The notes under the pieces: model-generated
Seen by the model: the letters and a program-made list of their open reading frames with translations, nothing else
Database searches by the model: none
What the model was told of the DNA's origin: nothing
DNA from: Methanothrix sp.
GTDB taxonomy: Archaea; Halobacteriota; Methanosarcinia; Methanotrichales; Methanotrichaceae
Length of the DNA stretch: 64,000 nucleotides
Direction: 5' to 3'
Assembly (NCBI RefSeq): GCF_030055635.1
Contig: NZ_JASFYM010000009.1
Span: 1 to 64,000 of the forward strand
Shown here: in pieces, positions 28,171 through 48,001 of the stretch
Layout: each line of letters opens with the position of its first letter
Position numbering within the stretch: position 1 is the first letter of the stretch
Made by a program: the position numbers and the translations under genes

Positions 28171-30015
28171 CTAATGCTCTGGCAGCATGAATGCTATGTC
28201 CTCAGATGGATGGCGGTACAGCCTTGCGCCAAGGCGCTTCTGATCCAGGATGTGCCCTATGATCCCGATCGTCCTGCCCAGCGCGAAGAGCCCGTTGAGG
28301 TATCCGTACTTCAGCACATCGTCTATATCCTGCTGCGTGAAGACCGGACACGATGCCATCAGGTCCAGGAAGAGTATGCCTATGCACCCATCGACGTTCA
28401 GGATCAGATTGCCCTTCTTGGCCGTTGTGATCGCCTCGACCTGGAGCGCGTAGTTGAGGAGATCCGTCCTGGCGAAGTGCCGCTTTGCGTAATCGATCAG
28501 CAGCTGCACCCTCTTATCAGGGTTCTTGACGCTCTTGATCCTGTGACCGATGCCCGGGATGTTCACGCCCTTTCTCTTCATCTCATTCACGAACTGCTCG
28601 GGGGTGAGACCGGAGTCGTATGCCCTCTTGAACTCCCTCGCCGCATCATCTATCGCCCCTCCGAACCTCGGGCCGATCGTGAGCAGTCCGCTTGCCAGTG
28701 AGGAGATGAGATCCTTGCCGGCGCAGGATGCGACGATCGCGTTGTGCGCCGCGGAGACGGATGGCCCGTGATCTGCGACTATCTGGAGAACAAGCTCTAT
28801 GAAGCGGGCAGCATAATCGGGGAGCACCTTCTTGAACCAGAGCAGGCCGATCACCCCGCCGATCCCCATGTTCCGCTCAAGCACATCGCTCAGAGGTATC
28901 CCTGCGTATAGCACCTCCTCGCCGCGGTCATCCGAGATCGTGCATATGAACGTTGTGGGCCTTCTTATCATGCCAGTTGAGAGGGCCTTGCTGTAATCCA
29001 CAGGTATGCTCGGAACCTGCGGCTCTACCACCTCTCTGACCTTTCCCTCGGCCAGGAGCCTCTCGTACACCTTTCTTATCTCATCTCCATATCCATCGAA
29101 GGACTCTGGGACGTGTGCCCCTGCCTCCTTAAGCGCGCGGTTCTTCTCCTGCGCGGTCTCCCTCGCTGTATCCGCCTTCGCACCCGCATGCCCGAACTGG
29201 ACGCTCGCAGGCAGAAAGGGCGCGCATGTTCCCGTGACCCAGGCAACAAGCGGCTTTGTTATCCTCCCCTCATTCAGAGCATCGACGATCCTGTACTCGT
29301 CCTCCCCGCCGAGCTCGCCCAGGCAGGCGATCATCGCTATATCCGGATTCGCCTCATACCTGAGTATGTGATCGAGCATGCTGGAGCCAGGGTACCTGTC
29401 GCCGCCTATGGCTATGCCCTCGTAGACGCCATTCGAGTTCCTGGAGATGATGTTGAAAGCCTCGTTGAGCATGCCGCCTGACTTTGAGACGAACCCAACA
29501 CATCCAGGCCTGTAGAGCCTGCATGCGACGATGTTCTCTATCGTTCCCGCGGTGTTGCCTATCCTGAAGGCGCCAGCAGCCAGGCCACCAACAGTTGCAG
29601 GCCCTATTATCACCTTGCCTGCTCTTCTCGCAGTCGCCCCGATTATCCTGGCGTGCCTCTCAGGCACTCCCTCAGCTATGATGGCAACAGTTCTTATTGT
29701 CCTCTCCCTTAAAGCCTCCATTGTTGTATCGAACGCGGATCTGTGTGAGGCGAAGTTCACCATCACATCAGCATCTGGATGCTTCTCGGCAGCCTCCGCG
29801 ATCGTCCTGTACATCGGAAGTAGGATCTCCTTCGTCCCCCAGAACGCCTTGTGTATTCCGGATCTGCTGGGGTTTATTATGGCCGCGATGCTGGGAGTCT
29901 CCCTCTGGCATACGTAATCGAAATCGAGCATCCTCTGGATCGCGTTCACCTGGTAACCGTAAACGAAAGCCTTCGTGTTCCTGTCGAAGAGAATGTAATC
30001 AGGCCTCGAGCTCAT
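28171..30015 (-). CDS. ATP-citrate lyase, citryl-CoA lyase subunit
   Basis: The 614-residue protein matches the C-terminal half of animal ATP-citrate lyase (plant ACLB-type). The N-terminal ~330 residues form a succinyl-CoA-synthetase alpha-like part with the phospho-His loop SVQFGHAGAKAD. A citrate-synthase-like domain follows (~350-614) with IGPRFGGAIDDAAREFKRA, NIPGIGHRIKSVKNPD and LNVDGCIG. With its partner it cleaves citrate with ATP and CoA to acetyl-CoA and oxaloacetate. It starts 3 bases after the stop of the other subunit. Such a pair is unusual in methanogens. Confidence 0.92.
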   Translation of the reverse strand: MSSRPDYILFDRNTKAFVYGYQVNAIQRMLDFDYVCQRETPSIAAIINPSRSGIHKAFWGTKEILLPMYRTIAEAAEKHPDADVMVNFASHRSAFDTTMEALRERTIRTVAIIAEGVPERHARIIGATARRAGKVIIGPATVGGLAAGAFRIGNTAGTIENIVACRLYRPGCVGFVSKSGGMLNEAFNIISRNSNGVYEGIAIGGDRYPGSSMLDHILRYEANPDIAMIACLGELGGEDEYRIVDALNEGRITKPLVAWVTGTCAPFLPASVQFGHAGAKADTARETAQEKNRALKEAGAHVPESFDGYGDEIRKVYERLLAEGKVREVVEPQVPSIPVDYSKALSTGMIRRPTTFICTISDDRGEEVLYAGIPLSDVLERNMGIGGVIGLLWFKKVLPDYAARFIELVLQIVADHGPSVSAAHNAIVASCAGKDLISSLASGLLTIGPRFGGAIDDAAREFKRAYDSGLTPEQFVNEMKRKGVNIPGIGHRIKSVKNPDKRVQLLIDYAKRHFARTDLLNYALQVEAITTAKKGNLILNVDGCIGILFLDLMASCPVFTQQDIDDVLKYGYLNGLFALGRTIGIIGHILDQKRLGARLYRHPSEDIAFMLPEH

Positions 30016-30018
30016 AGC

Positions 30019-31275
30019 TCACTCCCCCCTCAGTGCCATTGGCACTATCCTGGTCATGTGCGTCTCAGGGCCGTAGACCTCTATTGGTATTCCGAGCTCC
30101 CTGCCGAGCTCCCGCATCATCCTCAGCCCCTCCTCGTAGTTCGGCCCACCTCTGCGCACGTATATCCTGACGTTGTTCTCCCTGAGCCTGTCCCTGTACT
30201 CCCTCAGGGCCATGACAACGCCCTTGAAGGTGCTCGCGACGTCCGTGAAGTTCGCTATCGCGCCGCCGATGAGCAGCACCTTCCCCCTCGGATCTTTCTC
30301 CCTGGTCATGAGATCGAGTATCGTCTTTGTGTAATGGTAGGTATCCTCAGTGCTCGGATCGCCGCTGTACTCGCCGTAGTTCGCCAGCTCTCCGGCGAAG
30401 CCGAGATCGCATATCGTATCGGTGTATATCACGCTGGCTCCGCCGCCTGCGACCATCGTCCACACCCTTCCCTTCGGATTCAGTATCGTGAGCTTCAGCG
30501 ATGCGCCTGTCTTCGCATCTATCTCCTTTATGAAGAGCTCCTCAGGTGTCAGGCTCCTCCCGAATGGCTCCGGGAATACGAGATCTCCCCACTTCTTCCT
30601 GCACCAGAACTCCTCGGCATCGTCCAGCTTCGCGACCATATCGAGCGGTATTATCTTCCCGTCGACGATCGTGAAGGGGTTGATCTCCAGGTAGGCGAAA
30701 CCGAGGTCTACGTAGAACCTGAAGAGGGCCTCGATGAATCTTGCCACTCTCTCTGCATCCGGAGAGGCCGGGAGTTTGGATTTTATATCAACTGCATCGA
30801 TGCCATCCAGAATATCAACGTGCATCTGAACGACCCTGTCCCAGTTCTCCTCCACGCAGACGCCTCCCTGTGTGGAGAAGTAGATGGTATCCCCGTCGCG
30901 ATCCGAGCTTATGGCCACATAGAGCTCATTCTCATGAGGCACATACGGCTCAACCAGGAAGTGATCCAGGACGCCCCTGACACCGCCTATCGTCACCTCT
31001 CTCTTCATGTTCTTGCTCAGGTACTCCCTGACATCATCCCAGGAGGCGTTAAGCAGGACAAGCCCGTGGACGCCTCTTTTTCCGAAGAGCTGATCAGGCT
31101 TCACCACAAGCCTCTTCTCGAGAATCCAGGGATTCTCGGAGACCGTGCGTTCCAGATCGGTCTCCGGCCCGATCAGGGCAACCTCTCCTCTGTAGTCAAA
31201 ATCATCGAGGTATTCTGGGAGGAACCTGGCAAGCAGCCTCTTAGCATCAAACTCCCTAATGCCTCTCTGCGCCAT
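30019..31275 (-). CDS. ATP-citrate lyase, ATP-grasp/citrate-binding subunit
   Basis: This 418-residue protein matches the N-terminal part of animal ATP-citrate lyase. The ATP-grasp region begins with the family pattern REFDAKRLLARFLPEY and contains VVKPDQLFGKRG and LEINPFTIVDG...DMVAKLDD. The citrate-binding domain follows with GRVWTMVAGGGASVIYTDTICDLG and GELANYGEYSGDPS. AAGGTGGTT precedes the ATG, and TTTGTAAATAC at ~31308 is a plausible TATA box. The catalytic subunit follows 3 bases downstream. Complex formation is inferred from the family. Confidence 0.92.
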   Translation of the reverse strand: MAQRGIREFDAKRLLARFLPEYLDDFDYRGEVALIGPETDLERTVSENPWILEKRLVVKPDQLFGKRGVHGLVLLNASWDDVREYLSKNMKREVTIGGVRGVLDHFLVEPYVPHENELYVAISSDRDGDTIYFSTQGGVCVEENWDRVVQMHVDILDGIDAVDIKSKLPASPDAERVARFIEALFRFYVDLGFAYLEINPFTIVDGKIIPLDMVAKLDDAEEFWCRKKWGDLVFPEPFGRSLTPEELFIKEIDAKTGASLKLTILNPKGRVWTMVAGGGASVIYTDTICDLGFAGELANYGEYSGDPSTEDTYHYTKTILDLMTREKDPRGKVLLIGGAIANFTDVASTFKGVVMALREYRDRLRENNVRIYVRRGGPNYEEGLRMMRELGRELGIPIEVYGPETHMTRIVPMALRGE

Positions 31276-31374
31276 CTTACAACCACCTTCTGCGGGCCTA
31301 AGCGCTCTGTATTTACAAATCTTCTGGTCTGGCGCCAGGAAAGTGTTACATATCTGCGCAGACCAGCTCTCACC

Positions 31375-32364
31375 ATGGACTGTCCATCATGTGGAGGACG
31401 ATGCGTAAGACCAGCGGCTCATGTTCTGAATTCCATCGATTATATTTACATGGCGTGTCGGGAATGCAAAAATGAGCCGCATATTGACAAGAAGGCCCCA
31501 CGGAGATCCCTCGAGATAGGAGGGCTGGAGAGGTGCGAGCACTGCGGGAAAGCACCGCTGGATCTGGTCATGCTCGAGGCGATGGATCTCCTCGTCGAGG
31601 AGGGGCTTCGCGACGATCGCGAGCCGCTCCGCAGCGTCGGCTCGCCGATGATAGAGATTGGCTATCCCCTGCCATATCCACCGCGCCTCGGCGATTCTCA
31701 GCTCATACTGCTGATGGAGAGGGTGAACAGAAGTGCTGCCTCCAGGCTCATCGAGATACCGGAGGTAAAGGGCGTGATAAGACGCAGCAGACAGATACCT
31801 GGCGTTGTTGATAAAAAAGGGCACACATGGGAGCTGCTCTCAGGCTGCGATATGCGCTGTGACATCATCCAGAGCATCTACGGGGATCTTGTGATATACA
31901 AAAACCAGTCGAAGATACACATAGAGTTTCCCAGGGAGAGCTACCCTAAGATACGGATTCTGGAGAATCTAAGGATCGCGGGAAGAAGCGTGATCGACGG
32001 TCTCTGCGGGCCTGGAACCCTCGGGCTTGTCTGTGTACTTGCCGGCGCGAAAAAGGTCGTGATGAACGACATATGGCTGCCGGCGATCGAGAACGTGCTC
32101 ATAAACCTGGAGGCCAACAGGGACATCCTGGGCATAGATAGCATAGAGCTCTTCGATCGTGGAGATGAGCAGGTTGGAGGCAGTCCCAGGCTGGTCGGGC
32201 GCGCAAGGGGCGCATGCGAGATAGAGGTATACCATGGGGATATACGAAAGCTCTTCTCAGCTGTGAGCCCCCAGGATATATGCATACTGGATCACTTTCC
32301 TGGCGCACCGCTGGACGAGATCAGGAGAGCATGCAGCTCCTGCGATGAAATTGTGGTAATATGA
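31375..32364 (+). CDS. Zinc-ribbon SAM-dependent methyltransferase-like protein
   Basis: The 329-residue protein starts at the ATG at 31375. N-terminal Cys pairs (CPSCGGRC, CREC, CEHCG; residues 3-65) suggest two zinc ribbons. A middle domain (~85-180) is unassigned. Residues ~195-329 carry a class I SAM-binding fold: VIDGLCGPGTLGLVCVLAGAKKVVMNDIWLPAIENV. The product may modify an RNA or protein; target unknown. It is divergent from the ATP-citrate lyase genes, and its stop lies 1 base from the convergent tRNA-Pro. Confidence 0.75.
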   Translation: MDCPSCGGRCVRPAAHVLNSIDYIYMACRECKNEPHIDKKAPRRSLEIGGLERCEHCGKAPLDLVMLEAMDLLVEEGLRDDREPLRSVGSPMIEIGYPLPYPPRLGDSQLILLMERVNRSAASRLIEIPEVKGVIRRSRQIPGVVDKKGHTWELLSGCDMRCDIIQSIYGDLVIYKNQSKIHIEFPRESYPKIRILENLRIAGRSVIDGLCGPGTLGLVCVLAGAKKVVMNDIWLPAIENVLINLEANRDILGIDSIELFDRGDEQVGGSPRLVGRARGACEIEVYHGDIRKLFSAVSPQDICILDHFPGAPLDEIRRACSSCDEIVVI

Positions 32365-32365
32365 T

Positions 32366-32439
32366 GGGACAGCGCGGATTCGAACCGCGGTCCAAGCGTC
32401 CCAAACGCTCGAGGATGGACCAGGCTACCCTACTGTCCC
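32366..32439 (-). tRNA. tRNA-Pro (TGG)
   Basis: The 74-nt cloverleaf on the minus strand has acceptor stem GGGACAG/CTGTCCC, anticodon stem GAGCG/CGCTT, loop TTTGGGA with anticodon TGG, and T arm CCGCG-GTTCGAAT-CCGCG. No intron is present. CCA is not encoded. Confidence 0.95.
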
Positions 32440-32768
32440 GCAGAAGGGCAACGCAGTATGAATCAAACCATGGATATATAGCTAATCCTGAAGTGACTGC
32501 AGGGCGATGAGCAGAGGCTCCTGAAGACCAGATGAGGGAGGCTGCCCGGATCTGAACGAATCGCGGGTCATGTACTCAAATCACTGAATGGAAACTCAGG
32601 AACCGGCATTCTCAGGCACAAGAGATCACAAACCTGCGGTGTCACATGCTCCTCGGTTCGATGATCTGAGTACACGACCGAATCGCGGAGGTGCCGGATC
32701 TCATGACGGAGACCGCCCCGATTCTCAGATAATGCAGGGGCGCGGTCACATTTGACGCATCTTAGATC
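32440..32768. other. Spacer holding a 114-bp miniature element
   Basis: Apart from the element at 32566-32679 and its flanking duplications I see no gene. GGATATATAGC near 32472 is the likely TATA box of tRNA-Pro, 30 bases upstream of its 5' end. Confidence 0.5.
32558..32687 (+). mobile_element. 114-bp GGTCRTGTAC-ended miniature element, copy 2, with 8-bp target duplication
   Basis: The element is 32566-32679 with ends GGTCATGTACTC and GAGTACACGACC. Perfect 8-bp direct repeats GAATCGCG (32558-32565, 32680-32687) flank it. It has the same length and ends as 19209-19322, but much of the interior has diverged. Confidence 0.88.
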
Positions 32769-34215: not shown

Positions 34216-37200
34216 CTACTCAGGCTCGAAGCCGTGGTTCCTGAACTGCAGGGCTCTGCTGTTCTCGCTCACGATCCGCACGACGTTCTCCGGGAAGCCC
34301 TCTGCGGATCTGGCCTGGATCTCAAGCGTCACCTGCACATCAGATCCATTCAGGAGGTGCACAATCACCTCCTCTGCGATGCGGGCTGCGTCGCGGCCCA
34401 CGCGCTCCGGGTCCAGATCCACAGCCGCGTAGAAGCGGCGCGGAGGTTTTTTGATGGTTTGGGTCTCTGTGGGCACATCCCCTCTGGTCCTCACAACAGT
34501 TCTGCCCGCCTCATACGCAGATGCTCCAATACTTGATGACGCAGATGCTGCGGCGGCCTGGGCATCGCCTGTGATCTGACGGATCGCAGCCTCATTTCTG
34601 ACGAGAATGCAGCTGCTCTCTGGCGTGATCCTCACCGCCTGGCAGTACCTGAGGCCCTGGTAGCGGCCGTTCTCGTAGCCATCAGCGAGTGCGAAAGTCT
34701 CGGTCTCCCAGGAGATAAGCGAGATCCCCTCAGCGACTGCCTCGGCAAGCACCTCAGGAGAGCGAAGGCGGGGGAGGTAGATGTAGCTCGAGAAGTCCTC
34801 GACGAGCTGCCTCACGGATACGTGATCACCCCTCCACAGAGGGATCTCGTCGAGGTACCTGCGCAGCACTGCTGGTGCGAGCTTTTCTGTGAGCATCCCC
34901 TCATGCTTGAGCTTCCTGATCGCTCTTGTGATTATATCCTCGCTTCCTGTGAGCCGGAACTGCTTCCACTCCACAGGCGCAGATGGGCTGCTCTGCTCCG
35001 GTACGAGGAGCCACTGATATGTCTCAGGAACGCGCGCAGCTACAGCTCTCTCTGCATCCTCCATCTGCGCCCTTGCCTGTCTTGTCTGATGCGGATCGAG
35101 GTTCAGCTCCTCCCTCTCATCGAGAATGGATCTCCACGCTAGGTATCTTCTGAGAGCATCCTCGAGATCGCTGAGGCGCATGCTGTCAGCTGCGAGAAAC
35201 ACGAGGGTGTTGCGATACATGCGCGGCGCGCTCCCCCGTCTCTCCAGGATCTCTCCCGCAGCCTTCATCGCAGGATTATCCGCGTCCCTGGTGTATGGCA
35301 GATCAGGGGGAAGAACAACCAGCCTTGCATCAAGATCATCGGGGATATCCGAGCTAGAGCGCGGCAGCATGTGAACGCGTATCTCACTCCTCCTAACCTC
35401 CGACCGGAGCCTCTGCTCTAGCTCCTGAATCACACTGTCACGATCGCGCTTCAGCATCTCGGCCCTGTCCTCGGCAAGCTTTGTTACAGTTGGCTGGGTT
35501 GAGTACCAGTAGCGTGATCCATCCTGGTAGAGGTATGTAGCCGTGGCCGCGAGCCGCCTGAGGGCATCACCGAATATCGCGGGAGGCTCGCCAGGCATCA
35601 CGCAGCCGAGCTTGATCCTGCGATCCTCGATGCCCCGATGCGCTGCTGCTGCCATAGGCGCAGAGCCGAGATAGACCGTGCGGGCGACACGTCTGGTGGC
35701 ATGCAGCTTGCCGAGGTTCGGGTTCTCGGAGTCGAGCCTTCTTGGAAGAGAGTCCGGGCCGTCGACGTCCTTCTCGATTATGGGCATCCAGTTGTCAGGG
35801 AGGTAGCGGGTTAGCTCGAACCTCACCCTGTCATCGTCTATTGGCACAGACGCGGGGAGAATCAGAGGGTTCCTGTCGCCGTCCCTCCAGAGGCAGTGGA
35901 TCACAGCCGCCATCAGCCTGAGAACACCTCTGGTCCTCTGGAAGTTCGCAAGAGATGACCAGTCGGAGTAGAGCCGATCGAAGAGCTCCGGATGTATCGG
36001 GTAGGCAGCCCTGATCCTCCGCTCGTAATCTGCCTCTGCGCATTCTGATGGGAACTCATCCCGCTGGCTGCGGTAGAGATCTGCAAATGCCCTGGCGATG
36101 ACATCCCTCTGCTTGAACTGGTCTGGATCCGTGAACGGCTGGAAAAGCCTCCGCCTGACGATCTCAAAGCTCTCCTCTGCGGTTGCTGGCCGCCAAGGCG
36201 ATTCAATCCTGCCGATCACCTTTCTCAGACGTTCAAGGGCCTCACGCCCCCTGATCCCGCCGACCTCTGTGTCGTCAGCACCGGACGCATCCGATGCGGG
36301 GAGCGACACGACTAGGAGCGCGCGATCCGCGAGCTTTGCGGACTCTGTCAGGTTCTGAGCGAATGTGAACTGGGTCTCGAAGCTGCCCGCGGGCAGATCA
36401 CCGAGATCGTGGAGCTGTCTGGCGTATGCGACCCACTCGTCTATCAGGATGAGGCAGGGACCATGCTCTTTTAGGAGCTGTCTCATGACGTCTCCGGGAT
36501 TAGTCGCGCGCTCGTCATCGCTCCGGACGCGCTCGAACGCCTCGCGGCCTCCGAGCTGCCATGCGATCTCCCCCCACAGGGTGCAGATGCGCGTGCCGTC
36601 TGGCTTGACCGATGGATTCCCTGGAGAGATCCGGTTTCCGACGAGCACAACCCGCTTCACCTTCGGCACAGAGCTCACTCCAGCAGCCTTCATGACCTCC
36701 TCTATGCCGGGGAGATCTGATGGAGGGGTGCCTGAGAAGAGGTGATAGAGAGCGAGCATCGAGTGTGTCTTGCCACCACCAAAGCTCGTCTGGAGCTGGA
36801 CCACAGGCTCACCGCCCATGCCGCTCAGGCGCTTCAGGGCGTTGACCAGGAGCCACTTAAGGCTCTCTGTGAGGTAAGTCCGCCTGAAGAACTCGACCGG
36901 ATCCCTGTACTCATCGTTCCCCTCGCCGAGATAGACCTGCCATAGGTCGGCTGCGAACTCGGCCTGCTGGAACCTGCCCGCTGCGACGTCAGGATGTGGT
37001 GTGATGACCTCGCGCCAGGGCTTAAGGCCTCCGGTGGCAGCTGCTTCTATGAGAGAGCCCCCTGCCTTTCGCTTCTCGTTCCTGACCTGCTCATCGAATC
37101 TCAGGCGCAGGAGCTCCAGCTTCATGCGCTCCAGATCCTCTGCATGGGGAGCAGATACAGCTCGCAGGAGTCGCGCTGCAGAATCGATAGCCCTGTATGT

Positions 37201-37524
37201 GTCGTCGCTGGAGAATGTGTGCTGATGCGCCCATCTGTTCCTCCAGTCGCGCAGCTCTGAGACCAGGCTTCTCTCAGAGAATCCGAGGGTGTGCTTGAAG
37301 CACTCGTTCCAGGTCTCCCACATCAGCTTGAGAAGACCTGCCGCGTCCCACTGGGAGATGTGTCTGTCGGCGAGCTTCTCCTCCTCAGAGAAGCTCTGGA
37401 GGCGCTCCATGGTTATGGCGCCTGACTTGAGGGCCTCCTTGATCTCACGCTCAACGAAAGGCGCAAGCCCCTGGCGCAGAAGCTCAAGCGCCTTGCCGAC
37501 ACGCTCATGGTTTGTGATGGACAT
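34216..37524 (-). CDS. DUF499-type P-loop ATPase with HEPN (Swt1-like) N-terminus, defence-associated
   Basis: This 1102-residue protein has an N-terminal helical domain (~1-125) with R-x4-H (RNRWAH, 95-100), the pattern of HEPN RNase domains of the Swt1 group. The large ATPase follows with Walker A SFGGGKTH (~247-254) and Walker B CLILIDEWVAYARQL, the DUF499 type found in BREX-like and other defence loci. The middle contains winged-helix-like segments; the C-terminal ~150 residues include an Ala/Ser-rich linker. It lies downstream of the DUF1156 methyltransferase and DUF3800 genes on the same strand after a 368-base gap. An ATP-driven restriction role is inferred. Confidence 0.85.
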   Translation of the reverse strand: MSITNHERVGKALELLRQGLAPFVEREIKEALKSGAITMERLQSFSEEEKLADRHISQWDAAGLLKLMWETWNECFKHTLGFSERSLVSELRDWRNRWAHQHTFSSDDTYRAIDSAARLLRAVSAPHAEDLERMKLELLRLRFDEQVRNEKRKAGGSLIEAAATGGLKPWREVITPHPDVAAGRFQQAEFAADLWQVYLGEGNDEYRDPVEFFRRTYLTESLKWLLVNALKRLSGMGGEPVVQLQTSFGGGKTHSMLALYHLFSGTPPSDLPGIEEVMKAAGVSSVPKVKRVVLVGNRISPGNPSVKPDGTRICTLWGEIAWQLGGREAFERVRSDDERATNPGDVMRQLLKEHGPCLILIDEWVAYARQLHDLGDLPAGSFETQFTFAQNLTESAKLADRALLVVSLPASDASGADDTEVGGIRGREALERLRKVIGRIESPWRPATAEESFEIVRRRLFQPFTDPDQFKQRDVIARAFADLYRSQRDEFPSECAEADYERRIRAAYPIHPELFDRLYSDWSSLANFQRTRGVLRLMAAVIHCLWRDGDRNPLILPASVPIDDDRVRFELTRYLPDNWMPIIEKDVDGPDSLPRRLDSENPNLGKLHATRRVARTVYLGSAPMAAAAHRGIEDRRIKLGCVMPGEPPAIFGDALRRLAATATYLYQDGSRYWYSTQPTVTKLAEDRAEMLKRDRDSVIQELEQRLRSEVRRSEIRVHMLPRSSSDIPDDLDARLVVLPPDLPYTRDADNPAMKAAGEILERRGSAPRMYRNTLVFLAADSMRLSDLEDALRRYLAWRSILDEREELNLDPHQTRQARAQMEDAERAVAARVPETYQWLLVPEQSSPSAPVEWKQFRLTGSEDIITRAIRKLKHEGMLTEKLAPAVLRRYLDEIPLWRGDHVSVRQLVEDFSSYIYLPRLRSPEVLAEAVAEGISLISWETETFALADGYENGRYQGLRYCQAVRITPESSCILVRNEAAIRQITGDAQAAAASASSSIGASAYEAGRTVVRTRGDVPTETQTIKKPPRRFYAAVDLDPERVGRDAARIAEEVIVHLLNGSDVQVTLEIQARSAEGFPENVVRIVSENSRALQFRNHGFEPE

Positions 37525-37892
37525 CTTACCACATTCCTGTTCATCCGCGAATCCGAGGCGGTTATGTCGATAGTGCAGGACCGTACACGTCGCGGGGCGG
37601 AATCTCTGCCATTTTGTCAGCCTTAAAGAAAATAAATTTGTCGGATGTGGGGAAACTGTGCCTGGGAGGGATAAAAATGCTCTTTATGGGAAAGACCCAA
37701 AGATCCGGGTATATGTAAAGAGGTAACACATGGGTGACATCGAAGAGGGATTTATTTGGGCCACCCAGGAAACAATTAAATATCATCAAGGAGACTGCTG
37801 TAATGGATAGGTAAGTCCTTGGGAAACCATGTCTATCTGGGAATACCCATTTAGACGAGAGGGGCTCGTTCCTGATCGGGAATACCAAGGGT
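37525..37892. other. Gene-free gap inside the defence cassette
   Basis: The 368 bases are more A+T-rich than the flanking genes and contain several short G/T-rich near-palindromes (for example GGGAATACC motifs around 37840 and 37880). A minus-strand frame crosses it but overlaps the DUF3800 end and has poor composition. I see no RNA or promoter that I would call. Confidence 0.35.
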
Positions 37893-38663
37893 CTATCCGT
37901 TCTGCTGTTTTTGCCAGAATATCCTTTCTTTATATTTTGATCCAAACCGCTCCACGTAGAAGCGGTCATTATGAGCATATTTACAACTGGCCGCCCCTGC
38001 CACTATATCTGCAGCCCATATACCAGGCTCTATGTGTGAACTCATCTCCTGCAGGCATGGTAATTTTCCCTGATAAACTTTAAGCTCCATCGATTCGAGG
38101 TATCGCTCTTTGTTGCTGACGTAATCTTTGAACTCTTCGGTTTGAGCTGGAGAGAGCCGACCGCGGTCATATACAACAGATGGAGGATATCGTGCGTTTA
38201 CACCACGCATTACATTTATTAACAGCGTTTGAGCAAACACGAAGTTTCCAAGGCGTTCAGAAGTCCAAGAGTTGTATGCCTGCCTTTTATCCAAAACCGC
38301 TGCAAACACCATTTTTGCATCTTTCTTTATAATATCAATAGCTTTTTGGCGTACATCGGGAAGGTTACTCACGTATTTATTGACTTCCTCTTCGCTGTAG
38401 TCGAGCTGCTGCAACATCTTTGTCGTTGGAAGATAAAATTTCAGCTCTGTTATATCGCGTGGATATTTCTTGCTATCATGCACCTTTTTCAGCAGCCTTT
38501 TTAAATCCTTTCGTAACTGTGATGGATTGGTGCAGTGGACGAAGCCTACTGTGTAGTAAGGGTGCTCCCCTATGGAGGCTTCAGATAAACCAAGGTCTCC
38601 AGATTCATCTGCAAAAATGACCTCCCCGTCCACCGCATGGTATCTCCTGTGCCTCCATGACAT
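37893..38663 (-). CDS. DUF3800-family protein (RNase H-like fold), defence-associated
   Basis: The 256-residue protein has the DUF3800 start VIFADESGDLGLS (DESG, ~15-20) and a distal acidic IWAADIVAGAASC near residue 222, giving a predicted RNase H-like active site. It starts 6 bases after the stop of the DUF1156 methyltransferase, so they are co-transcribed. Codon use is clearly more A+T-rich (AAA, TAT, ATA) than in its neighbours, which suggests separate acquisition. DUF3800 proteins are frequent in defence islands; a nuclease role is inferred. Confidence 0.8.
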   Translation of the reverse strand: MSWRHRRYHAVDGEVIFADESGDLGLSEASIGEHPYYTVGFVHCTNPSQLRKDLKRLLKKVHDSKKYPRDITELKFYLPTTKMLQQLDYSEEEVNKYVSNLPDVRQKAIDIIKKDAKMVFAAVLDKRQAYNSWTSERLGNFVFAQTLLINVMRGVNARYPPSVVYDRGRLSPAQTEEFKDYVSNKERYLESMELKVYQGKLPCLQEMSSHIEPGIWAADIVAGAASCKYAHNDRFYVERFGSKYKERIFWQKQQNG

Positions 38664-38669
38664 CTCTTC

Positions 38670-41489
38670 TCATCCCAGCGTCCTCTGTGCGGGTTTGACG
38701 AGCCTGATCAGCTCAGGCCAGCTCTGGACGAGGGCGTTGTAGCGGATAGCATCCTGCGAGCGCCTCCTGCGGTCGCAGATCATGTAGAGCCTGTAGGCGA
38801 GGTCGCGCGCGGAGTCCGCGTTCGGGCCGAGCTTCGAGAGGAGATCAGAGGCTGCGGTCTCGCCACCGGATTCGAGCAGCCTGATCAGGTGATGGGTCAT
38901 CTCCCAGACTGTGAGGCGCTTGTCCACTGTAGGATCATAATCAGATGGCAGCTCCTCTGGCTTCAGCAGCCTGACCCTGCCGCGCTTCGACTCGATTATT
39001 CCGGCATCCACCATGCCGTCGACGCTGGTGTTCTTCGCCTTCGAGAGCGTCTCGGCATCCCCGAACGCGCCGGATTCGAAGCCGTGCTGTTCGAACCACG
39101 CGAGCGCCCAGCGTGTATCGGCATCGAAATCACCCTCCTGCTCCGCCAGGACCTCGTCGAGAGTTGCGTTGATCAGCCTCAGCGCCTCGCCGACGCTGAC
39201 CCTCTCCCCTGAGGCCTCCACCACCTCAGAGTACCTGCTGTAAACCGCCATTCCAGGGCCGATGGCAGCCTGCTGCAGATCCACAGGCGCTATGCCTCCC
39301 TCCCGCATCACTCTGAGCGCATGGGGGAGCTCCCGTCTCAGCGCCGCGATGAGCTCCCTGCGGGTGGCCACTCCTGCGCCGGCAGGCCTGGGTCTGCATA
39401 CGAGGACTATGCTCGACGCCAGCACGTTCGCCTCCCTCGCGTTCGTCCTGTTCCCGAGCTCTGTCCTCATAGGCCAGGTTCCGGTGATCATGAACCCTGC
39501 ATTTATAACGGCCTCCAGGAACGTCTCCCAGCCGGTCCTCGCCCCGTTCCCTGTATTCTCGGACTGCTTGTAAGCGTAGTATACCGTCACCGGAAACTCA
39601 GGATGCGCCTGCTCGGCGATCCTCCTCAGGGACTGGGACATCCCCTCCAGGAAGAAGCGCTCAGCCTCCTCCCTGGATCTGTGCCTGTAGGGAACAACGA
39701 CCATCTCCTCATTTTTGGGGGCTGAGAGCGTTGCGAAGAGCTCAGGGTATATGTCTCTGAGGGTTCTCCTGAGCCAGACGTAGAAGTAATCGGAGAGATC
39801 CGCGTATCCGATGTTGTCGTGGTACGGCGGATCTGTGGAGACGATTCTGTTTCTGCTTAACGACTGCGATCTGGCATCGGAGATCAGAGATGAGCCCTCA
39901 GGACCCCGCCGCACCGCACGCAGGACCTCCACGACATTGCTGAGCATCGAGCTGAAGGATCCGCTCGATCCGGAGAGGGGATTTGCCTCGGCGTAATCCC
40001 ACGTCATCGGGATCGCCTGGCGTGTGAAGGTGTTGCGAATGTTGTCTCTGCCTGAATGCCAGCCGCATATCGTCGATGAGTAATCTGCGCACTTGTCCAG
40101 AGCGAGTGCGAGGTAGACGCCGATCGCCTCGGCGTAGGCCCTGGCGCCTCTCCCGCCTTTCGCCAGCACATCGCCCTCGGGGATCCCCGCTTCTCTCGCG
40201 TCCCGATGCACCCTCTCGATCGTCTCCTTTATGATATCAGAGAATGTCGTGAGCGCCACGAGCTGGCGCGGGGAGAAGAGATCGCCGAAGGTGGTGAGAC
40301 CGTAGAGAGGCGTTCTGAAGTCCCTTGTATCACTAGAGATGGATACATCCGGCTTCCATGTCGGGATAGCGCTTCTTGCGATCTCCTCATGCTCTTTTAT
40401 CGCTGGGAGGTAGACTCTACCACCCGGGCCGTCTGCAACTATCGCAATCAGACGTGCGCCCATGCGCCCGTTTATTCCTTCGGACCGTATGTATTCGAGA
40501 GATATCGGGATACCCGAGAAAATACATAGAAAGCCTGAGTTTTTCCCGCCTGATTTAGTACCCTGCTTCGCCCATTCCGGCATCTCCTCAGCGCCTGCGT
40601 GCACCCTGAACCAGTACTCCCTCCCATCGATCACGGGCTCGAGGTATGCGTGCTTCCTCGTTGAGAGAACGTAGGATGATATGAGCGGCACCTCGATATC
40701 TGCGAACGCCGGGTTCGGGCTTCTCACCGTTCTTGCCCAGATCCACGCGATCACGGTGAGCTCTTCTCCCACAAGATCTCTGAGATCATCCCTCTCAGAG
40801 GCCATCTCCTCTGTGATCCTTATCTTCGGATAGAGATGACCGATCCTCCGCTCCGCCTCCCTGAGGAGCTCGTTCCCGTAGAAGGGAACATCCTCTGCGA
40901 GACCGTGGGTACCATCAGAACCGATCCTGCGGTTCGCTGCCGGGTTCACAGGACCGATTCCAGAAAGCTGCGCTGGGATCTCGATGAGAGCTTTGTTTAT
41001 GAGAACTGCCACCGGGTTCAGATCACTTGCACATGCCCTGAGCCCGAGGCGCTGAGCCTCAAGCGGTATCGAGCCGCCTCCAGCGAATGGATCGTGGAAC
41101 CCGGGGAGCCTGCCCGGGTCGTAGAGCTCCTTATCGTTGCTGCCAGCGCATGCCCTCCTCCAGGATTTCCAGATCTCATCCCTCGCACCGGTGAGAATTG
41201 TTTCATCGTTCGAGCTCTCCCATCGCACGAGGTTCCTGATTATCGAGAAGAGACGATCACGCTCCCGCTTCTGATCCTCCTCTGTCAGAAAGAGCTCAGG
41301 CCAGGCAGATGGATCGTCGACCATCTGGGCGAAGAGCACAGCCCTGGATGCGGCCAGCGGCCTCCTCGCCCACCAGAGATGGAGCGTGCTCGGATGTCCG
41401 TGCCGGATGGATTTCTCGCGCGATGCCTCTCTGTTTATGACATCGAGAGGCAGGGCGACCTCGATGAGCTTTTTTCGATAGGATGTCAC
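38670..41489 (-). CDS. DUF1156 adenine-specific DNA methyltransferase, defence-associated
   Basis: The 939-residue protein begins with a DUF1156 domain (LIEVALPLDVINREASREKSIRHGHPSTLHLWWARRPLAASRA). SAM-binding motif DPFAGGGSIPLEAQRLG (133-149) with SDLNPVAV follows, and the catalytic DPPY is at 553-556 (IVSTDPPYHDNIGYADLSDYFY). About 410 residues between the motifs could include target recognition. The C-terminal third is helical. The start is GTG behind GGAGGGG. N6-adenine methylation of host DNA as self-marking is the expected role. It heads the three-gene cassette. Confidence 0.9.
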   Translation of the reverse strand: MTSYRKKLIEVALPLDVINREASREKSIRHGHPSTLHLWWARRPLAASRAVLFAQMVDDPSAWPELFLTEEDQKRERDRLFSIIRNLVRWESSNDETILTGARDEIWKSWRRACAGSNDKELYDPGRLPGFHDPFAGGGSIPLEAQRLGLRACASDLNPVAVLINKALIEIPAQLSGIGPVNPAANRRIGSDGTHGLAEDVPFYGNELLREAERRIGHLYPKIRITEEMASERDDLRDLVGEELTVIAWIWARTVRSPNPAFADIEVPLISSYVLSTRKHAYLEPVIDGREYWFRVHAGAEEMPEWAKQGTKSGGKNSGFLCIFSGIPISLEYIRSEGINGRMGARLIAIVADGPGGRVYLPAIKEHEEIARSAIPTWKPDVSISSDTRDFRTPLYGLTTFGDLFSPRQLVALTTFSDIIKETIERVHRDAREAGIPEGDVLAKGGRGARAYAEAIGVYLALALDKCADYSSTICGWHSGRDNIRNTFTRQAIPMTWDYAEANPLSGSSGSFSSMLSNVVEVLRAVRRGPEGSSLISDARSQSLSRNRIVSTDPPYHDNIGYADLSDYFYVWLRRTLRDIYPELFATLSAPKNEEMVVVPYRHRSREEAERFFLEGMSQSLRRIAEQAHPEFPVTVYYAYKQSENTGNGARTGWETFLEAVINAGFMITGTWPMRTELGNRTNAREANVLASSIVLVCRPRPAGAGVATRRELIAALRRELPHALRVMREGGIAPVDLQQAAIGPGMAVYSRYSEVVEASGERVSVGEALRLINATLDEVLAEQEGDFDADTRWALAWFEQHGFESGAFGDAETLSKAKNTSVDGMVDAGIIESKRGRVRLLKPEELPSDYDPTVDKRLTVWEMTHHLIRLLESGGETAASDLLSKLGPNADSARDLAYRLYMICDRRRRSQDAIRYNALVQSWPELIRLVKPAQRTLG

Positions 41490-41895
41490 TTTCCCCTCCA
41501 GCGTATAGCTTGCAAAATCCTTATTTCCATCTTTCCCATGCTCTATGGTCGTTGCTTGTAGATTCCTGAAAAGTATTCTTCGTCAAACCCGCAAAGGTGC
41601 TGCAACGAAAGAGCTTGCGCGGGACATGAGGGTGTCAAAAAGGAGGGTGTAGATTTGGCAGTCCCATTAGATGTGTTTATTTTGAGCAATGCTGGTATGG
41701 AAATCGATACCAATGGACCGGTTAACAAATTTCCGGCGCCCCACAGCGTGGTTGATGGCTAATTGTTTTCGCGCTTATCCACACGTCTTAGGTAGAGTAC
41801 CTATTCGCGCCAGTCGCGTTTATTCTCATAAATCATTTTATAAATATTATATTTTTATATTTTGGATGGTTGCCTGATACATCACCATTGGAACA
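41490..41895. other. Low-GC spacer with IS remnant
   Basis: The spacer holds the IS481-like fragment at 41545-41652. Its right end is very A+T-rich (ATAAATATTATATTTTTATATTTT at 41840-41865). Nothing else gene-like is visible. Confidence 0.45.
41545..41652 (+). pseudogene. N-terminal fragment of an IS481-like transposase
   Basis: The 35-codon frame ends in a helix-turn-helix typical of IS481-type transposases in methanogens (TRKGAATKELARDMRVSKRRV). It stops at TAG exactly where functional relatives read V-Q-I-W; the codons after the stop are ATT TGG. A CAG-to-TAG change is the simplest explanation. The frame breaks soon after, so the rest of the gene is lost. Confidence 0.5.
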
Positions 41896-43440
41896 TTACC
41901 TATCTAGTGCAAAGGTTCTCTCCGTAACAGGCCTCTCCTTGACCTCATGAATCAGCATCTCAATTCTATTTCCGATGCCCATGATTCTGAAATTCTCTAG
42001 CTTGTCCAGGGCATGTTGAAGATTGGCGCTTCTCTCTGCATAGATGGTGAACAGTGATTCACCTTCATCCACGATATCCCCGAGCTTCTTATGAAGGAGG
42101 ATTCCGGCGCCGGAGTCCTTCGGACATCCGGCAAACCTTGCCAGATCGGCGACCAATGCATTGTTGATCCATAGCACAATCCCAGACCTATCGGATTGAA
42201 GTGTGAACTGATGGCTGCCAAGGGCAATATCTTCAGGATTTATCCGTGGGTCTCCTCCTTGCGCCTCAATTATCTCCCTCATCTTCATCTCGGCCTTTCC
42301 GGATCTTAGGGCCTCTGCTGCATGCTCGCGTCCGTTTTCTTTTCCAGCCATCTCCAGGATCATCCCAGCGACAGCGATTGCCTTTTCAACCACGTCCGAA
42401 GCACTTCCTCGGTTCATAAGAGCTTCCAATGCCTCCTTTGCCTCTAAAGAGGGACCTATAGCGTAGCCCACCGGCTGCTCGCCATATGTGACAGCACATC
42501 GTACCTGCATTCCCATGCGGCTGCCGATCTCCATGAAATCCTTGGCCAATAGATCCGCCTCCCCGATCGTCTTAACCTTAGCGCCCCTCCCGCAAGGGAT
42601 GTCGACTACCAGGAGGTCCGCACCGACAGACTTTTTCTTGCTCATGATCGAGGGGAGCAGGAGCGGATCGATTGATAGAGGGTACTCTACCTTCACGAAT
42701 ATGTCGTCTGCAGGGGCTAGATGGACAGAGCCTCCCCAGACAATGCAACCGTCTGTTCTCTCCACCACCTCCTGCATCTCTCCCATATCCAGGCTTACGG
42801 GCATCAGTACTTCTGCTCGATCTGCAGTCCCGGCTGCAGATGTGATAGCCCTGGAAGAGGTTTTGGGTATCGGGAGCCCGCATGCTGCAATAATCGGGAC
42901 CACAAGCAGTGTAGTCTTGTCTCCAGGCACACCTCCTATAGAATGCTTATCAACAACCGGTTGTTTGTCCAGCTTCAGCATGTTGCCGGTCTTCACCATG
43001 GCACGCGAGAGGTTTGTAGCCTCGTCAAGATCCAGGCCGAAGCAATGCAACGCGGTCACGAAGGCGGCTATCTCCACATCGCTCAGCTTTCCCCCAATCG
43101 TATCCTCAACGATATTCAGGATCTCGTCATATACCAGCTTTCGTCCCATCAGCTTGTTCCTGATAAATAATAGAGAGGCAGGGAAGGGCGCAACATTTAC
43201 TTCGACATCGACACCCTCCTCGAGGCCAAGGGCGGCCCAAACTTTCTTGCATACCCCTATGTGACCCGGCTGAACGAGGTCGGTGGATGTGTGAACTATC
43301 GCTGTCTGCTCCACCACATCAGTTCGGATCGTGATCCTTGCCAGGCTCATAGCTCCTAGCTGCTCAGCGTCTTGTTCATGCAGTACTGCAACGGCCTTCC
43401 CACCCGCGTCTAAACCCAAAAACACCGTTTTTAGAATCAT
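41896..43440 (-). CDS. deoA: AMP phosphorylase (archaeal DeoA type)
   Basis: At 514 residues from the ATG at 43440 it has the size of archaeal AMP phosphorylase, larger than bacterial thymidine phosphorylase because of an N-terminal ~85-residue domain. The phosphorylase signature is KHSIGGVPGDKTTLLVVPIIAACGLPIPKTSSRAITSAAGTADRAEV. The enzyme splits AMP with phosphate to ribose-1,5-bisphosphate and adenine. The next enzyme, ribose-1,5-bisphosphate isomerase, is at 60445. Codon use is less G+C-rich than in the flanking core genes. Confidence 0.92.
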   Translation of the reverse strand: MILKTVFLGLDAGGKAVAVLHEQDAEQLGAMSLARITIRTDVVEQTAIVHTSTDLVQPGHIGVCKKVWAALGLEEGVDVEVNVAPFPASLLFIRNKLMGRKLVYDEILNIVEDTIGGKLSDVEIAAFVTALHCFGLDLDEATNLSRAMVKTGNMLKLDKQPVVDKHSIGGVPGDKTTLLVVPIIAACGLPIPKTSSRAITSAAGTADRAEVLMPVSLDMGEMQEVVERTDGCIVWGGSVHLAPADDIFVKVEYPLSIDPLLLPSIMSKKKSVGADLLVVDIPCGRGAKVKTIGEADLLAKDFMEIGSRMGMQVRCAVTYGEQPVGYAIGPSLEAKEALEALMNRGSASDVVEKAIAVAGMILEMAGKENGREHAAEALRSGKAEMKMREIIEAQGGDPRINPEDIALGSHQFTLQSDRSGIVLWINNALVADLARFAGCPKDSGAGILLHKKLGDIVDEGESLFTIYAERSANLQHALDKLENFRIMGIGNRIEMLIHEVKERPVTERTFALDR

Positions 43441-44352
43441 CTCTAGCACTCCGTCTTCCAGCTTCGTCTCCCAGTTTGATGCGCAGTTATTGGGGGATTA
43501 TGAATTAAGATCTTAGGACATTTGCAGAGGAGAGCTGAGCCGAGTTAAATTTGATTTGCACTTGGAGGTCCCCATTCTCCTCCAGGTAAGAGTGGATCTC
43601 CTTCTGCATGAATACGACTTTAGGGATTCTCTTTAAGCTTCACATGAACCTCAACCGCTTTTCTTCCAAGGATCGTGCTTGTACTGCACCCCAATCAACC
43701 TTAATGGCTTCTATCAGGCTCGTTGGAAGAGTCCAATCCCTTGTAGATGCCTCTAACTTCCCCCTGGATTTCGACCACATCTGCGAGGCTTCTAAGCATG
43801 CTCGTCACCTCATCTGCGGTCATGTAGAACTCCTGCACAAACCCCTCGTCCACTTGTAGGCTTCCTTCCAATCTGCTTGGTCTTCCACTTATCGTTACCA
43901 TTAAGATCACTGGGATTGATTTTGGATCGACTTGCTGAAAATATTTTCGGTATCCTTTGCATTCTTCAAGACCGGAATTCTCCGGTGCTTTCTGGTAGAG
44001 CTGGTCTCAAAACTATTTACGCAGACTTCCATCAGGATCTAGATTTCACATCGGTTTGGTGCTAAGGGCATTGATTACTCACGTGTAATCTCTGTTCGGT
44101 TAAAAACGGTACGCATCGCTATTTTGAGACGAGTACTAGTCAAACGGCTACGGTGCATCCAGCAGCTAGCTGTGCGGTTTTAAATTTAAAATAAGTGTTG
44201 ATTGTTCGTGTATGACTGGGCTTGCTTTCGTTTGAGCATAAGGTTTTTATTGGGAATCCTCATCTGGTAACCGGGTGTAGATACTGAAGCATATAAGCAA
44301 AAGGAGATGCGGGCATAATCTTCCCCGAATAGCTTGAGGGATCTGAAATAAG
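43441..44352. other. Long low-GC intergenic region
   Basis: About 900 bases contain only the small frame at 43701-43901 as a candidate gene. TTTTAAATTTAAAA near 44177 is palindromic and could serve as a TATA box in either direction. No RNA fold stood out. Confidence 0.4.
43701..43901 (-). CDS. Possible small protein (66 aa), perhaps frameshifted
   Basis: An ATG with AGTGATC about 6 bases upstream opens a 66-codon frame with protein-like composition (VTISGRPSRLEGSLQVDEGFVQEFYMTADEV...). Near its end another frame takes over with equally protein-like sequence (LIEAIKVDWGAVQARSLEEKRLRFM). A one-base frameshift may therefore have truncated an ~85-residue protein. No family is recognised. Confidence 0.4.
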   Translation of the reverse strand: MVTISGRPSRLEGSLQVDEGFVQEFYMTADEVTSMLRSLADVVEIQGEVRGIYKGLDSSNEPDRSH

Positions 44353-46017
44353 ATGATGTTAGATCTGCTTTTCGCCGTTATTCCTGCTGTCATTTTATTC
44401 CTTTACGGCATTGAGAATTTCTCTGAAGAAGTTCGACATGTAGCTGGTGAACGCTTCCGATCCGCTCTGCAAAAAGCGACAAGGACACCTCTTCGTGGCG
44501 CGCTTGCGGGCGCGGCAGTTACTGCAATGGTCCAATCCAGCACTGCTACAACAATCATCGCTGTGGGGCTCGTAAACTCCGGAGCGATATCATTCTTGGG
44601 TTCCCTGGGGATAATTATAGGTGCGAACATTGGCACAACTCTTACTGCACAGCTAGTTGCCCTCAAGCTGACGGCCTTTGCTCCAATATTTATTATCCTT
44701 GGGTTTGTGATAAGCATAATTCGTGGACCTTACAGGGCTTTTGGAAAGCCGATATTTTATTTCGGGCTTGTATTCTATAGCCTTAATTTGATTTCGTCAG
44801 TGGTTGCACCTCTGCAGGGAGACCCTGGCGTTCTATCTCTTATAGCCACGACAGACAATACCTTAATGGCAGTCGCCATCGGTTTTATTATAACAAACCT
44901 GTTCCAGTCTAGCTCGGTCACTGCAGGGCTGGTTGTTGTCCTGGCACAAAGCGGTCTGATCACCACTATACAGGCCGTACCGTTAATACTGGGAGCCAAT
45001 ATCGGCACATCAATCACAGGGCTTATCGTATCCCTGCGCATGAACACAGCGGCGAAGCGTACTGCAGTTGCTCAGTTTCTCTTTAATTTTCTGGGTGTGC
45101 TGCTCTTTCTGCCGTTTATAGATGGCTTTTCGCTGCTGATCGAAGAGCTGGGCGGCTCTGCTGCTCAGCAAGTGGCAAATGCCCATCTTATCTTCAACTC
45201 CACATGTTCGGTGATATTTCTGCTGGCAATAAAGCCGTTTTCCAGCCTGATCATGTACCTTCTGCCGCAAAAGGACGGAGAGATAGTCTTCGTCACAAAA
45301 CATATTACACCGGAACTCCCAGCGGACATCTCAGCCGCGACTATTCTGGTGGAAAAAGAGATTGGGCACATGCTCAAAGTCACTGGAGATATCTTTGAGA
45401 GCGCTCTGAAGGTCGCAGATGGCAAGATCGACATGTGTTCAAGAGTTGTGCAGCTGAGAGACTACGTCGAGTTTCTGCATTCACAGATCATATCTGCCAT
45501 CATGTCACTATTAGATCGTCAGATATCTCTTGAAGGTGCCGCTCGTCTCGCTATACTTGCACGAGTTGCCGACCTCTGCGGCCTGATGGCGCAGCAGATG
45601 GTATCAATGGCAAAAGTATTCGAGATGATGAAGGATAAGAAAATTGCACTATCACCAGAATCCTACACTGGCATTCAGGACATGGCGGTCCTTTGCAGGG
45701 AGAATATAGAATATCTTTTGGCAACATTCCCGGAAATGCCGGAGGATATTGAGAAACAAATGCGCCTAAATGATGAGCGTCTCCGTCAATTGTTGAACTG
45801 GAATTATAAGGGATATCTGATCAGGTTGGCTGCCAAGAGTTCTTACAGCAAGATGTTCTCAGAGATACTCTTCTCCTTCGAGAGAATCGGATCCATCATC
45901 AGGGAATTGAGAAAGACATCCACAGTGATGGGGCTGCATGCTTCTGCCCTGGATGTGCCTGATCTCATCAACCCGCCCGATCAGGATGATGCGGCCGCCG
46001 GCCACGACGAAAAATGA
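44353..46017 (+). CDS. Na/Pi cotransporter-type protein with PhoU-like C-terminus
   Basis: The 554-residue protein has about eight membrane helices (residues 1-300) with the duplicated QSS motifs of the Na+/phosphate cotransporter family (VQSSTATTIIAVG and FQSSSVTAGLVVV, each followed by GANIGT). A helical PhoU-like cytosolic domain fills residues ~330-530. It likely moves phosphate with sodium, or regulates it. The gene lies alone in the A+T-richer stretch between the two halves of the defence region. Start is ATG at 44353 or 44356. Confidence 0.92.
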   Translation: MMLDLLFAVIPAVILFLYGIENFSEEVRHVAGERFRSALQKATRTPLRGALAGAAVTAMVQSSTATTIIAVGLVNSGAISFLGSLGIIIGANIGTTLTAQLVALKLTAFAPIFIILGFVISIIRGPYRAFGKPIFYFGLVFYSLNLISSVVAPLQGDPGVLSLIATTDNTLMAVAIGFIITNLFQSSSVTAGLVVVLAQSGLITTIQAVPLILGANIGTSITGLIVSLRMNTAAKRTAVAQFLFNFLGVLLFLPFIDGFSLLIEELGGSAAQQVANAHLIFNSTCSVIFLLAIKPFSSLIMYLLPQKDGEIVFVTKHITPELPADISAATILVEKEIGHMLKVTGDIFESALKVADGKIDMCSRVVQLRDYVEFLHSQIISAIMSLLDRQISLEGAARLAILARVADLCGLMAQQMVSMAKVFEMMKDKKIALSPESYTGIQDMAVLCRENIEYLLATFPEMPEDIEKQMRLNDERLRQLLNWNYKGYLIRLAAKSSYSKMFSEILFSFERIGSIIRELRKTSTVMGLHASALDVPDLINPPDQDDAAAGHDEK

Positions 46018-46029
46018 TGGCTTCATTGA

Positions 46030-47316
46030 TCACAGGCCAACGAATCTTGAAACTGTAACTATCAGCAAAGCAACCGGTATGGCATATTTTGTGAGTAGAG
46101 AGAGAAGCATAAGCCGCCTCTCTGTGAGATGGACCTGGCGGATTAAGATATCGCTATCCGTGTACCACCGGAAGACGACTGCAACAAGAAATGCAGCTAC
46201 TGGCAGTCCTATCGTTCCAACAGTCTTATCCATCAGGTCTAAGATCTTTGACCCAAGCATATTTAGATCGACTGAGCTGTAGCTCAGACAAGAAGGCAGA
46301 CCTATCAGCATAATGGTTACTGTCAGGAAAATGCTTGCCTTTGTCCTGTTCATGTTGGTTTCTCTAATAATGGCAGCCACAATCACCTCCATCATCGATA
46401 TTGCTGAGGTGATAGCTACGGAGAAGAGAAGAGCGAAGAAAGCCGTCGAAAAAGCTCGACCTTGTGGCATCAATTCAAAGCCTTCGGGCAGAGTGGTAAA
46501 GGCAAGCTCAGCGCCTGCAGTGGGTTCTAGACCGAAGGTGAAGACTAGAGAAAAGATATAGGCTCCTGCCAGCATGGCGACAGCAAGGTCAGCGATAGTG
46601 ATGACCAAAGCGGATTGTGGTATGTCGGTTTCATCATCGAGATATGCCCCATATGTGATTAGAATGCCCATGCCGACTGATAGGGAGAAGAAAGCCTGAC
46701 CCAGAGCAGCGCTCCAAACGCTTGGATGGGCGAGCATGGAGAAATCAGGGCTAAGGAAAAAGTTCATCCCAGGATGAAAACCTGGAAGAGTGATGGAGAA
46801 GAATACCAGAATCAGCAGGATGAGAAATGCAAATGGAATCAAAGTGGATACTATCTTCTCAATGCCCGCTCGAACGCCCAGACAAACAATCACGCCAGTT
46901 GCCAGCGCTGAGATCAAAAAGTAAGCTACTGGCTGCAACGAGGAGGTGAACGAAGAAAAGGCTATCTTGAGGTCGAGAAGTGAGAAGACCAGATACGCCA
47001 TAGTCCAGCCGGTGATCACCAGATAGTAGCTCAGGATTAAGAGAAGTGTCGTACATATCATCCAACCCAATATCTTGAACTTTTCGCCAGCACGGCCAAA
47101 GCACGAGACCACATCCGCTCTAAAATGCCTTCCTACAGCCATCTCGAGGATCATCAGAGGAACGGCGAACAGAAGAACTGCCAAAAGGTACGGTATTAGG
47201 AAAGCTCCTCCTCCATTCTGCCCCACTACCGATGAAAATCGCCAAACATTGCCTATGCCTACGGCTGATCCTATTGCTGCCAATATAAAACCCGTTCTCG
47301 AAGACCACCTCTCCAT
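46030..47316 (-). CDS. Neurotransmitter:sodium symporter (NSS/SNF) family transporter
   Basis: From the ATG at 47316 the protein has 428 residues and about 11-12 membrane helices. The family signature is at the start: ERWSSRTGFILAAIGSAVGIGNVWRFSSVVGQNGGGAFLIPYL, which includes the sodium and substrate sites of helix 1. LeuT-type members import amino acids with Na+. It converges with the Na/Pi gene (12-base gap). A small frame at 47378 diverges from it. Confidence 0.93.
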   Translation of the reverse strand: MERWSSRTGFILAAIGSAVGIGNVWRFSSVVGQNGGGAFLIPYLLAVLLFAVPLMILEMAVGRHFRADVVSCFGRAGEKFKILGWMICTTLLLILSYYLVITGWTMAYLVFSLLDLKIAFSSFTSSLQPVAYFLISALATGVIVCLGVRAGIEKIVSTLIPFAFLILLILVFFSITLPGFHPGMNFFLSPDFSMLAHPSVWSAALGQAFFSLSVGMGILITYGAYLDDETDIPQSALVITIADLAVAMLAGAYIFSLVFTFGLEPTAGAELAFTTLPEGFELMPQGRAFSTAFFALLFSVAITSAISMMEVIVAAIIRETNMNRTKASIFLTVTIMLIGLPSCLSYSSVDLNMLGSKILDLMDKTVGTIGLPVAAFLVAVVFRWYTDSDILIRQVHLTERRLMLLSLLTKYAIPVALLIVTVSRFVGL

Positions 47317-47377
47317 GTTTGCTCTTTTGATTATTCTCAAGGGCTTTATGTTGTCATCTCTTACTATTTAGAATGTG

Positions 47378-47993: not shown

Positions 47994-48001
47994 CACTCAG
48001 T

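Follow-up and report, generated by a model that had tools for sequence, protein, structure and literature searches.

The window, meaning the whole 64,000-nucleotide stretch of Methanothrix DNA analysed here, carries on its minus strand three large genes, which we call HmaA, HmaB and HmaC, with a smaller DUF3800 gene between the last two. HmaA and HmaB are on the same strand and in the canonical order, but they stand 6.5 kb apart. From HmaA to HmaC, the locus comprises:

48041-51592, minus strand: HmaA, helicase-nuclease, recognised by PADLOC, Pfam and motifs
41490-48040, no strand assigned: insert of ~6.5 kb between HmaA and HmaB, no part of the Hma system
47702-47994, in the insert: multicopy ~120-bp repeats
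46030-47340, minus strand, in the insert: SNF-family symporter
44353-46017, plus strand, in the insert: Na/Pi cotransporter
41896-43449, minus strand, in the insert: second AMP phosphorylase
38670-41489, minus strand: HmaB, 939 aa with a GTG start, DUF1156 N6-adenine DNA methyltransferase by profile
37893-38663, minus strand: DUF3800 protein, 256 aa, between HmaB and HmaC, putative RNase-H-fold nuclease
37525-37892, minus strand: spacer between the DUF3800 gene and HmaC, 368 bp
34216-37524, minus strand: HmaC, 1102 aa with an ATG start, DUF499 AAA+ ATPase with an N-terminal Swt1-like HEPN domain

A first-pass annotation had described the last three of these genes as a putative defence cassette. 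The methylase, DUF3800 and ATPase ORFs were confirmed at the positions it gave, all on the minus strand, as was the start of the DUF3800 ORF 6 bp after the methylase stop codon, and the motifs DPFAGGGS, DPPY, DESG and RNRWAH are all present as it described them. The families that it assigned also stand, as the DUF1156, DUF3800, HEPN_Swt1 and DUF499 profiles all exceed their Pfam cut-offs. Judged at the level of sequence, the domain and motif content of the three ORFs is not due to chance. A further ORF of 138 aa (37562-37978), which overlaps the end of the DUF3800 gene in a different frame, was taken as spurious.

HmaB matched its PADLOC profile with 1366.8 bits over residues 5-931 of 939 and Pfam DUF1156 with 108.6 bits (1.7e-31). 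Motif I, DPFAGGGS, begins at residue 133 and motif IV, DPPY, at residue 553; both are intact, and D133, P134, F135, G137, G139 and the DPPY of residues 553-556 are invariant across 23 homologs. HmaA, to judge from profiles and motifs, is an SNF2/SF2 helicase with a C-terminal PD-(D/E)XK nuclease domain: the PADLOC profile covers residues 18-1182 with 1621.7 bits, Pfam recognises Helicase_C, SNF2 and NOV_C/DUF3883 domains, and the motifs are intact (Walker A GAGKT at residue 147, DEAH at 247, GYD...EVKG at 1090-1110). Its ortholog in one congener, G003, is 90% identical and has an open frame. Since the annotated 5' end of HmaA overlaps xseA, the true start is probably inside the annotated ORF, near 51540.

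HmaC matched its PADLOC profile over residues 167-1100 (1140.6 bits), and Pfam identified both HEPN_Swt1 (126 bits, 9e-37) and DUF499 (1.7e-33). The ATPase motifs, Walker A GGGKT at residue 249 and Walker B LILIDE at 358, are intact. The HEPN motif RNRWAH occupies residues 95-100 (R95-x4-H100), and both R95 and H100 are kept in all aligned homologs that have the HEPN region; the region is absent from three aligned homologs. An AlphaFold model built on a 39-sequence alignment has a mean pLDDT of 85.4, and its N-terminus is helical over the span matched by the HEPN profile, as expected if the HEPN assignment made earlier is correct. A sequence search found no PDB relative of HmaC. When the model was compared with the PDB, the only significant match was the BrxC-BrxB fusion 9zn5 (E 6e-5, probability 1.00). 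The predicted fold of HmaC is therefore BrxC-like, and this match provides independent support for a relationship with BREX.

Given that PADLOC recognises all three core proteins, we hold with high confidence that the locus is a chromosomal Hma (Type-1 BREX-related) system of Methanothrix, antiviral and restriction-modification-like. The system is a known one, here split in its layout and carrying one unusual embedded gene. Hma was defined as a combination of helicase, methylase and ATPase (Payne et al. 2021, PMC8565338) and was renamed the Type-1 DUF499-centred BREX-related (BR) system in a 2026 study, which counted it in 2446 taxa, 203 of them archaeal, with an HEPN-fused ATPase in 1370 of the 2446 (PMC12839542). 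The comparison upholds, on sequence grounds, the broader earlier reading of a defence locus with a putatively self-marking methylase, a DUF499 ATPase and an HEPN domain bearing an RNase motif. The statement that it matched no complete named system was wrong, and the reported absence of HsdR was wrong in effect, because HmaA, in the same window and on the same strand 6.5 kb upstream, is the equivalent subunit; it was this distance that made the restriction subunit seem absent. Nor do the genes form a three-gene cassette, since the core consists of HmaA, HmaB and HmaC, and the DUF3800 gene is a low-GC embedded gene outside that core. The locus is thus a widespread published system and not an unnamed cassette, and tools or readers that need tight adjacency can overlook complete Hma systems.

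The likeness to Hma/Type-1 BR lies in three core proteins matched near full length and in their A-B-C order, strand and domains; the window differs in the 6.5 kb between HmaA and HmaB and in the DUF3800 gene between HmaB and HmaC. Most related loci that are long enough to show it have the A-B-C order, and eight archaeal Hma loci have this order with no more than about 5 kb between genes. The domains are essentially equal to those of the Ava_2192-type loci, described in 2013, in which an HEPN-DUF499 protein has a methylase and an SNF2-DUF3883 helicase as neighbours (Anantharaman et al., PMC3710099); in those loci, too, DUF499 carries a Swt1-like Rx4H HEPN domain, and what the window adds is the split locus and DUF3800. 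Of the BREX systems, type 3 is the closest. HmaC shares with BREX a BrxC-like predicted fold, and for the Hma/BR methylase and helicase homology to components of BREX has been described (PMC12839542). However, the window proteins include no PglZ, BrxB or BrxL, and BREX proper was rejected, as PADLOC detected no PglZ, BrxB, BrxA or other BREX genes among the 43 other window proteins at 1e-8; the absence of PglZ had already been reported, rightly, in the first-pass annotation. The NCBIfam anti-phage DUF499/DUF1156 equivalogs NF042962 and NF042963 are distant homologs, and their scores of 181 and 116 bits lie so far under the cut-offs of 1200 and 1000 that the window proteins do not belong to that subtype.

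The segment separating HmaA from HmaB has a GC content of 0.43-0.53, depending on the gene or spacer, versus 0.59-0.60 in the Hma genes. Its AMP phosphorylase is 46% identical to the copy common to all six Methanothrix genomes examined and has no close counterpart in the five congeners. In congener G003 the HmaA ortholog is followed after 162 bp by the start of HmaB, at the contig end. This adjacency points to insertion of the low-GC 6.5-kb segment between the two genes in the window; insertion into an ancestral A-B interval is the simplest reading, and we infer the order of events from it. The divergent AMP phosphorylase shares its low-GC segment with two sodium-coupled transporters. At the HmaA end of the insert, a ~120-bp element (47702-47824) has 18-bp imperfect terminal inverted repeats (AGCTGCTGTGTTGGAGAA / TTATCCAACACAGCAACT) and is MITE-like, with many copies in the window genome and in congener G002. 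A neighbouring repeat of ~123 bp (47871-47993) recurs several times elsewhere in the assembly at 97-100% identity and is a possible source of misassembly or recombination.

Within the genus the Hma system is unstable. HmaC was not found in two congeners; in G002 (L149:1-3080) it is frameshifted and adjoins the DUF166 gene as in the window, and in the complete genome of G005 (L142:8285-9776) an 82-residue C-terminal remnant of HmaC, lying directly behind xseA, is the scar of Hma loss. In the window, xseA and the DUF166 gene flank the Hma locus; in the other genomes they are not neighbours, which indicates a chromosomal rearrangement at the locus as well.

The layout invites the question of whether the system still works. 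With 6.5 kb and three metabolic genes, one on the opposite strand, lying between HmaA and HmaBC, the two parts do not share a transcript, and the system could be in decay; at the extreme, the separation would have left the modification part orphaned and the nuclease drifting, as the HmaC remnant and frameshift in two congeners might suggest. However, given that HmaA, HmaB and HmaC are all full length with intact motifs, that HmaA retains an open frame and close identity to its congener ortholog, and that HmaA lies directly downstream of xseA and could be transcribed from there, we consider a non-functional system unlikely. Alternatively, the split might be an artefact, the window having been misjoined at the ~120-bp repeat near 47.9 kb, with HmaA and HmaB truly adjacent. 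The near-identical copies of that repeat elsewhere in the assembly would permit such an error, but the misjoin must then have yielded the correct order and orientation of HmaA and HmaB by chance, and we regard it as very improbable. The idea of a stand-alone three-gene cassette with DUF3800 and HEPN as its effectors, proposed in the first-pass annotation, draws on the methylase, DUF3800 and ATPase genes being consecutive and co-directional; yet it is HmaA-HmaB-HmaC that recurs as a unit, the window genome does contain HmaA, DUF3800 is not recurrent and some HmaC homologs have no HEPN, so that this proposal is hardly tenable. We therefore favour an intact Hma system divided by an insertion.

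The DUF3800 gene differs from its surroundings. At a GC content of 0.444, versus 0.595 and 0.601 in the flanking genes, its composition is foreign, and no homolog of its product was found in the five congeners. The gene is full length and co-directional with HmaB and HmaC. Its product scores 37.2 bits against the Pfam profile (5.8e-9; cut-off 21), has DESG at residues 19-22, and keeps all of the putative catalytic acids: D19, E20, E73 and D166 are invariant, and D219 nearly so, in 11 sequences that include distant archaeal relatives. Published reports assign the family an RNase-H fold and describe it as an accessory of CRISPR types V-A2 and VI-F (PMC10910872, PMC12669027). From the profile match and conserved acids seen here, together with the fold given in those reports, we regard the protein as a putative RNase-H-fold nuclease; a sequence search of the PDB returned no relative, and a single-sequence fold prediction was unusable (mean pLDDT 37.5). 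Like the nucleases of CRISPR V-A2 and VI-F, it belongs to this family and adjoins an interference module, but unlike them it has no adjacent Cas effector and no fused TPR domain. Searches for relatives in viruses or plasmids found none, and in PADLOC-DB 2.0.0 the protein matched no PADLOC family at E 0.01 and no HEC or PDC model.

The 368-bp spacer that follows matched nothing in Rfam and does not fold with unusual stability (z -0.15), and a structured RNA tied to DUF3800 was accordingly rejected. Positions 37764-37841 of this spacer are 88% identical to the sequence upstream of HmaC in a congener. A 5-kb contig of G003 (C40, locus L150), made up of small mobile-element-like ORFs, has a 78-bp stretch in common with the spacer at 88% identity.

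The neighbourhood of DUF1156, DUF499 and DUF3800 put forward earlier did not recur in the loci and genomes searched. DUF3800 was absent from all 80 other Hma/DUF499 loci, in a profile scan of the loci and a Pfam search of their 46 source genomes. In a paired search of 394 archaeal genomes, 81 with HmaC/DUF499 matches and 54 with DUF3800, the window alone, among the matches listed, had DUF3800 beside an Hma/DUF499 gene. DUF3800 as a recurrent Hma partner was thus rejected. The slot that it occupies is nevertheless a busy one: the B-C interval is at least 300 bp in 25 of 66 related Hma loci, and extra genes are often found there and in the A-B interval, including members of the PIN, PD-(D/E)XK, Uma2, Schlafen and ABC-ATPase families. 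In archaea, the B-C slot holds an HEC-01 gene pair in locus L225 and a GmrSD-like HEC-05 gene in L220, and a gene of the same size as the latter in L221. HECs are genes that were chosen for testing because of their place between Hma genes, and several of them protect against viruses (PMC12988326, PMC12111858). The DUF3800 gene resembles these "guilt-by-embedding" cases in being an extra co-directional gene between Hma core genes, but it matches no HEC or PDC model and its embedding was found once.

Because defence genes occupy the same slot elsewhere, the position of the DUF3800 gene suggests a defence role by analogy, whereas recurrence speaks against one. Most likely it encodes an accessory nuclease embedded in the locus or is a defence gene in its own right; that it is a passive passenger is nearly as likely. 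That the gene has no functional tie to Hma, being a mobile or selfish low-GC gene that landed in a tolerant intergenic slot, is a substantial possibility, if short of even: its GC content stands out between neighbours of 0.60, the five congeners yielded no homolog, and neither the 80 loci nor the matches listed in the 394 archaeal genomes place it beside HmaC elsewhere. Against this, it is co-directional and starts 6 bp after the HmaB stop codon, it is of full length and retains every putative catalytic acid, and known defence genes hold the same slot in other Hma loci. The stronger claim, of a genuine RNase-H-fold auxiliary effector of Hma that would act with or back up the helicase-nuclease, is tentative and on balance doubtful. 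If true, it would place in the system a superfamily outside the seven nuclease superfamilies catalogued around BREX/BR in the 2026 survey of accessory nucleases, which mentions neither DUF3800 nor RNase H. If the DUF3800 protein is protective, an RNase-H-fold nuclease would join the BREX-related accessory effectors, and DUF3800 would be tied to defence beyond CRISPR. The sole point here that is possibly new is the embedding of an RNase-H-fold auxiliary nuclease in an Hma locus, of which a single case was seen.

We propose a model that follows the published Type-1 BR model (PMC12839542), by analogy with which the activities of the window proteins are assigned. HmaB would methylate adenine (m6A) at a specific site in host DNA. 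HmaC, as a BrxC-like AAA+ protein, would assemble on and scan DNA and license HmaA, which would translocate on unmodified DNA and cut it with its C-terminal PD-(D/E)XK nuclease; antiphage activity of the helicase-nuclease is recorded in the 2026 study (PMC12839542, citing Liu 2024). The HEPN domain of HmaC, as a latent RNase, would probably serve as a back-up, killing or stalling the cell should restriction fail. The first-pass annotation had cast HEPN as an effector; that it is the primary one is unlikely, since the published model gives the primary role to the helicase-fused nuclease and treats HEPN as a suicide RNase held in reserve (PMC12839542). The embedded DUF3800 gene would be an accessory of recent acquisition, its product most likely a nuclease, independent or auxiliary, that is expressed together with the Hma proteins, and HmaA would have been separated from HmaBC by the later metabolic-gene insertion, its gene still intact.

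Other features were noted in passing. An ARAGORN tmRNA call at 31749-32458 was set aside, as it spans an ordinary tRNA-Pro and the host is archaeal. An 837-aa ORF on the plus strand (29851-32364), antisense to ATP-citrate-lyase-like genes, is probably a by-product of composition. At the edge of the window, positions 143-475 hold a TnpB/Cas12f-like C-terminal fragment and then a short M54-peptidase-like ORF. Among the related loci, a Meiothermus plasmid (L188:5547-25687) carries an intact HmaABC followed directly by a vWA/tubulin-like/BrxL gene set.
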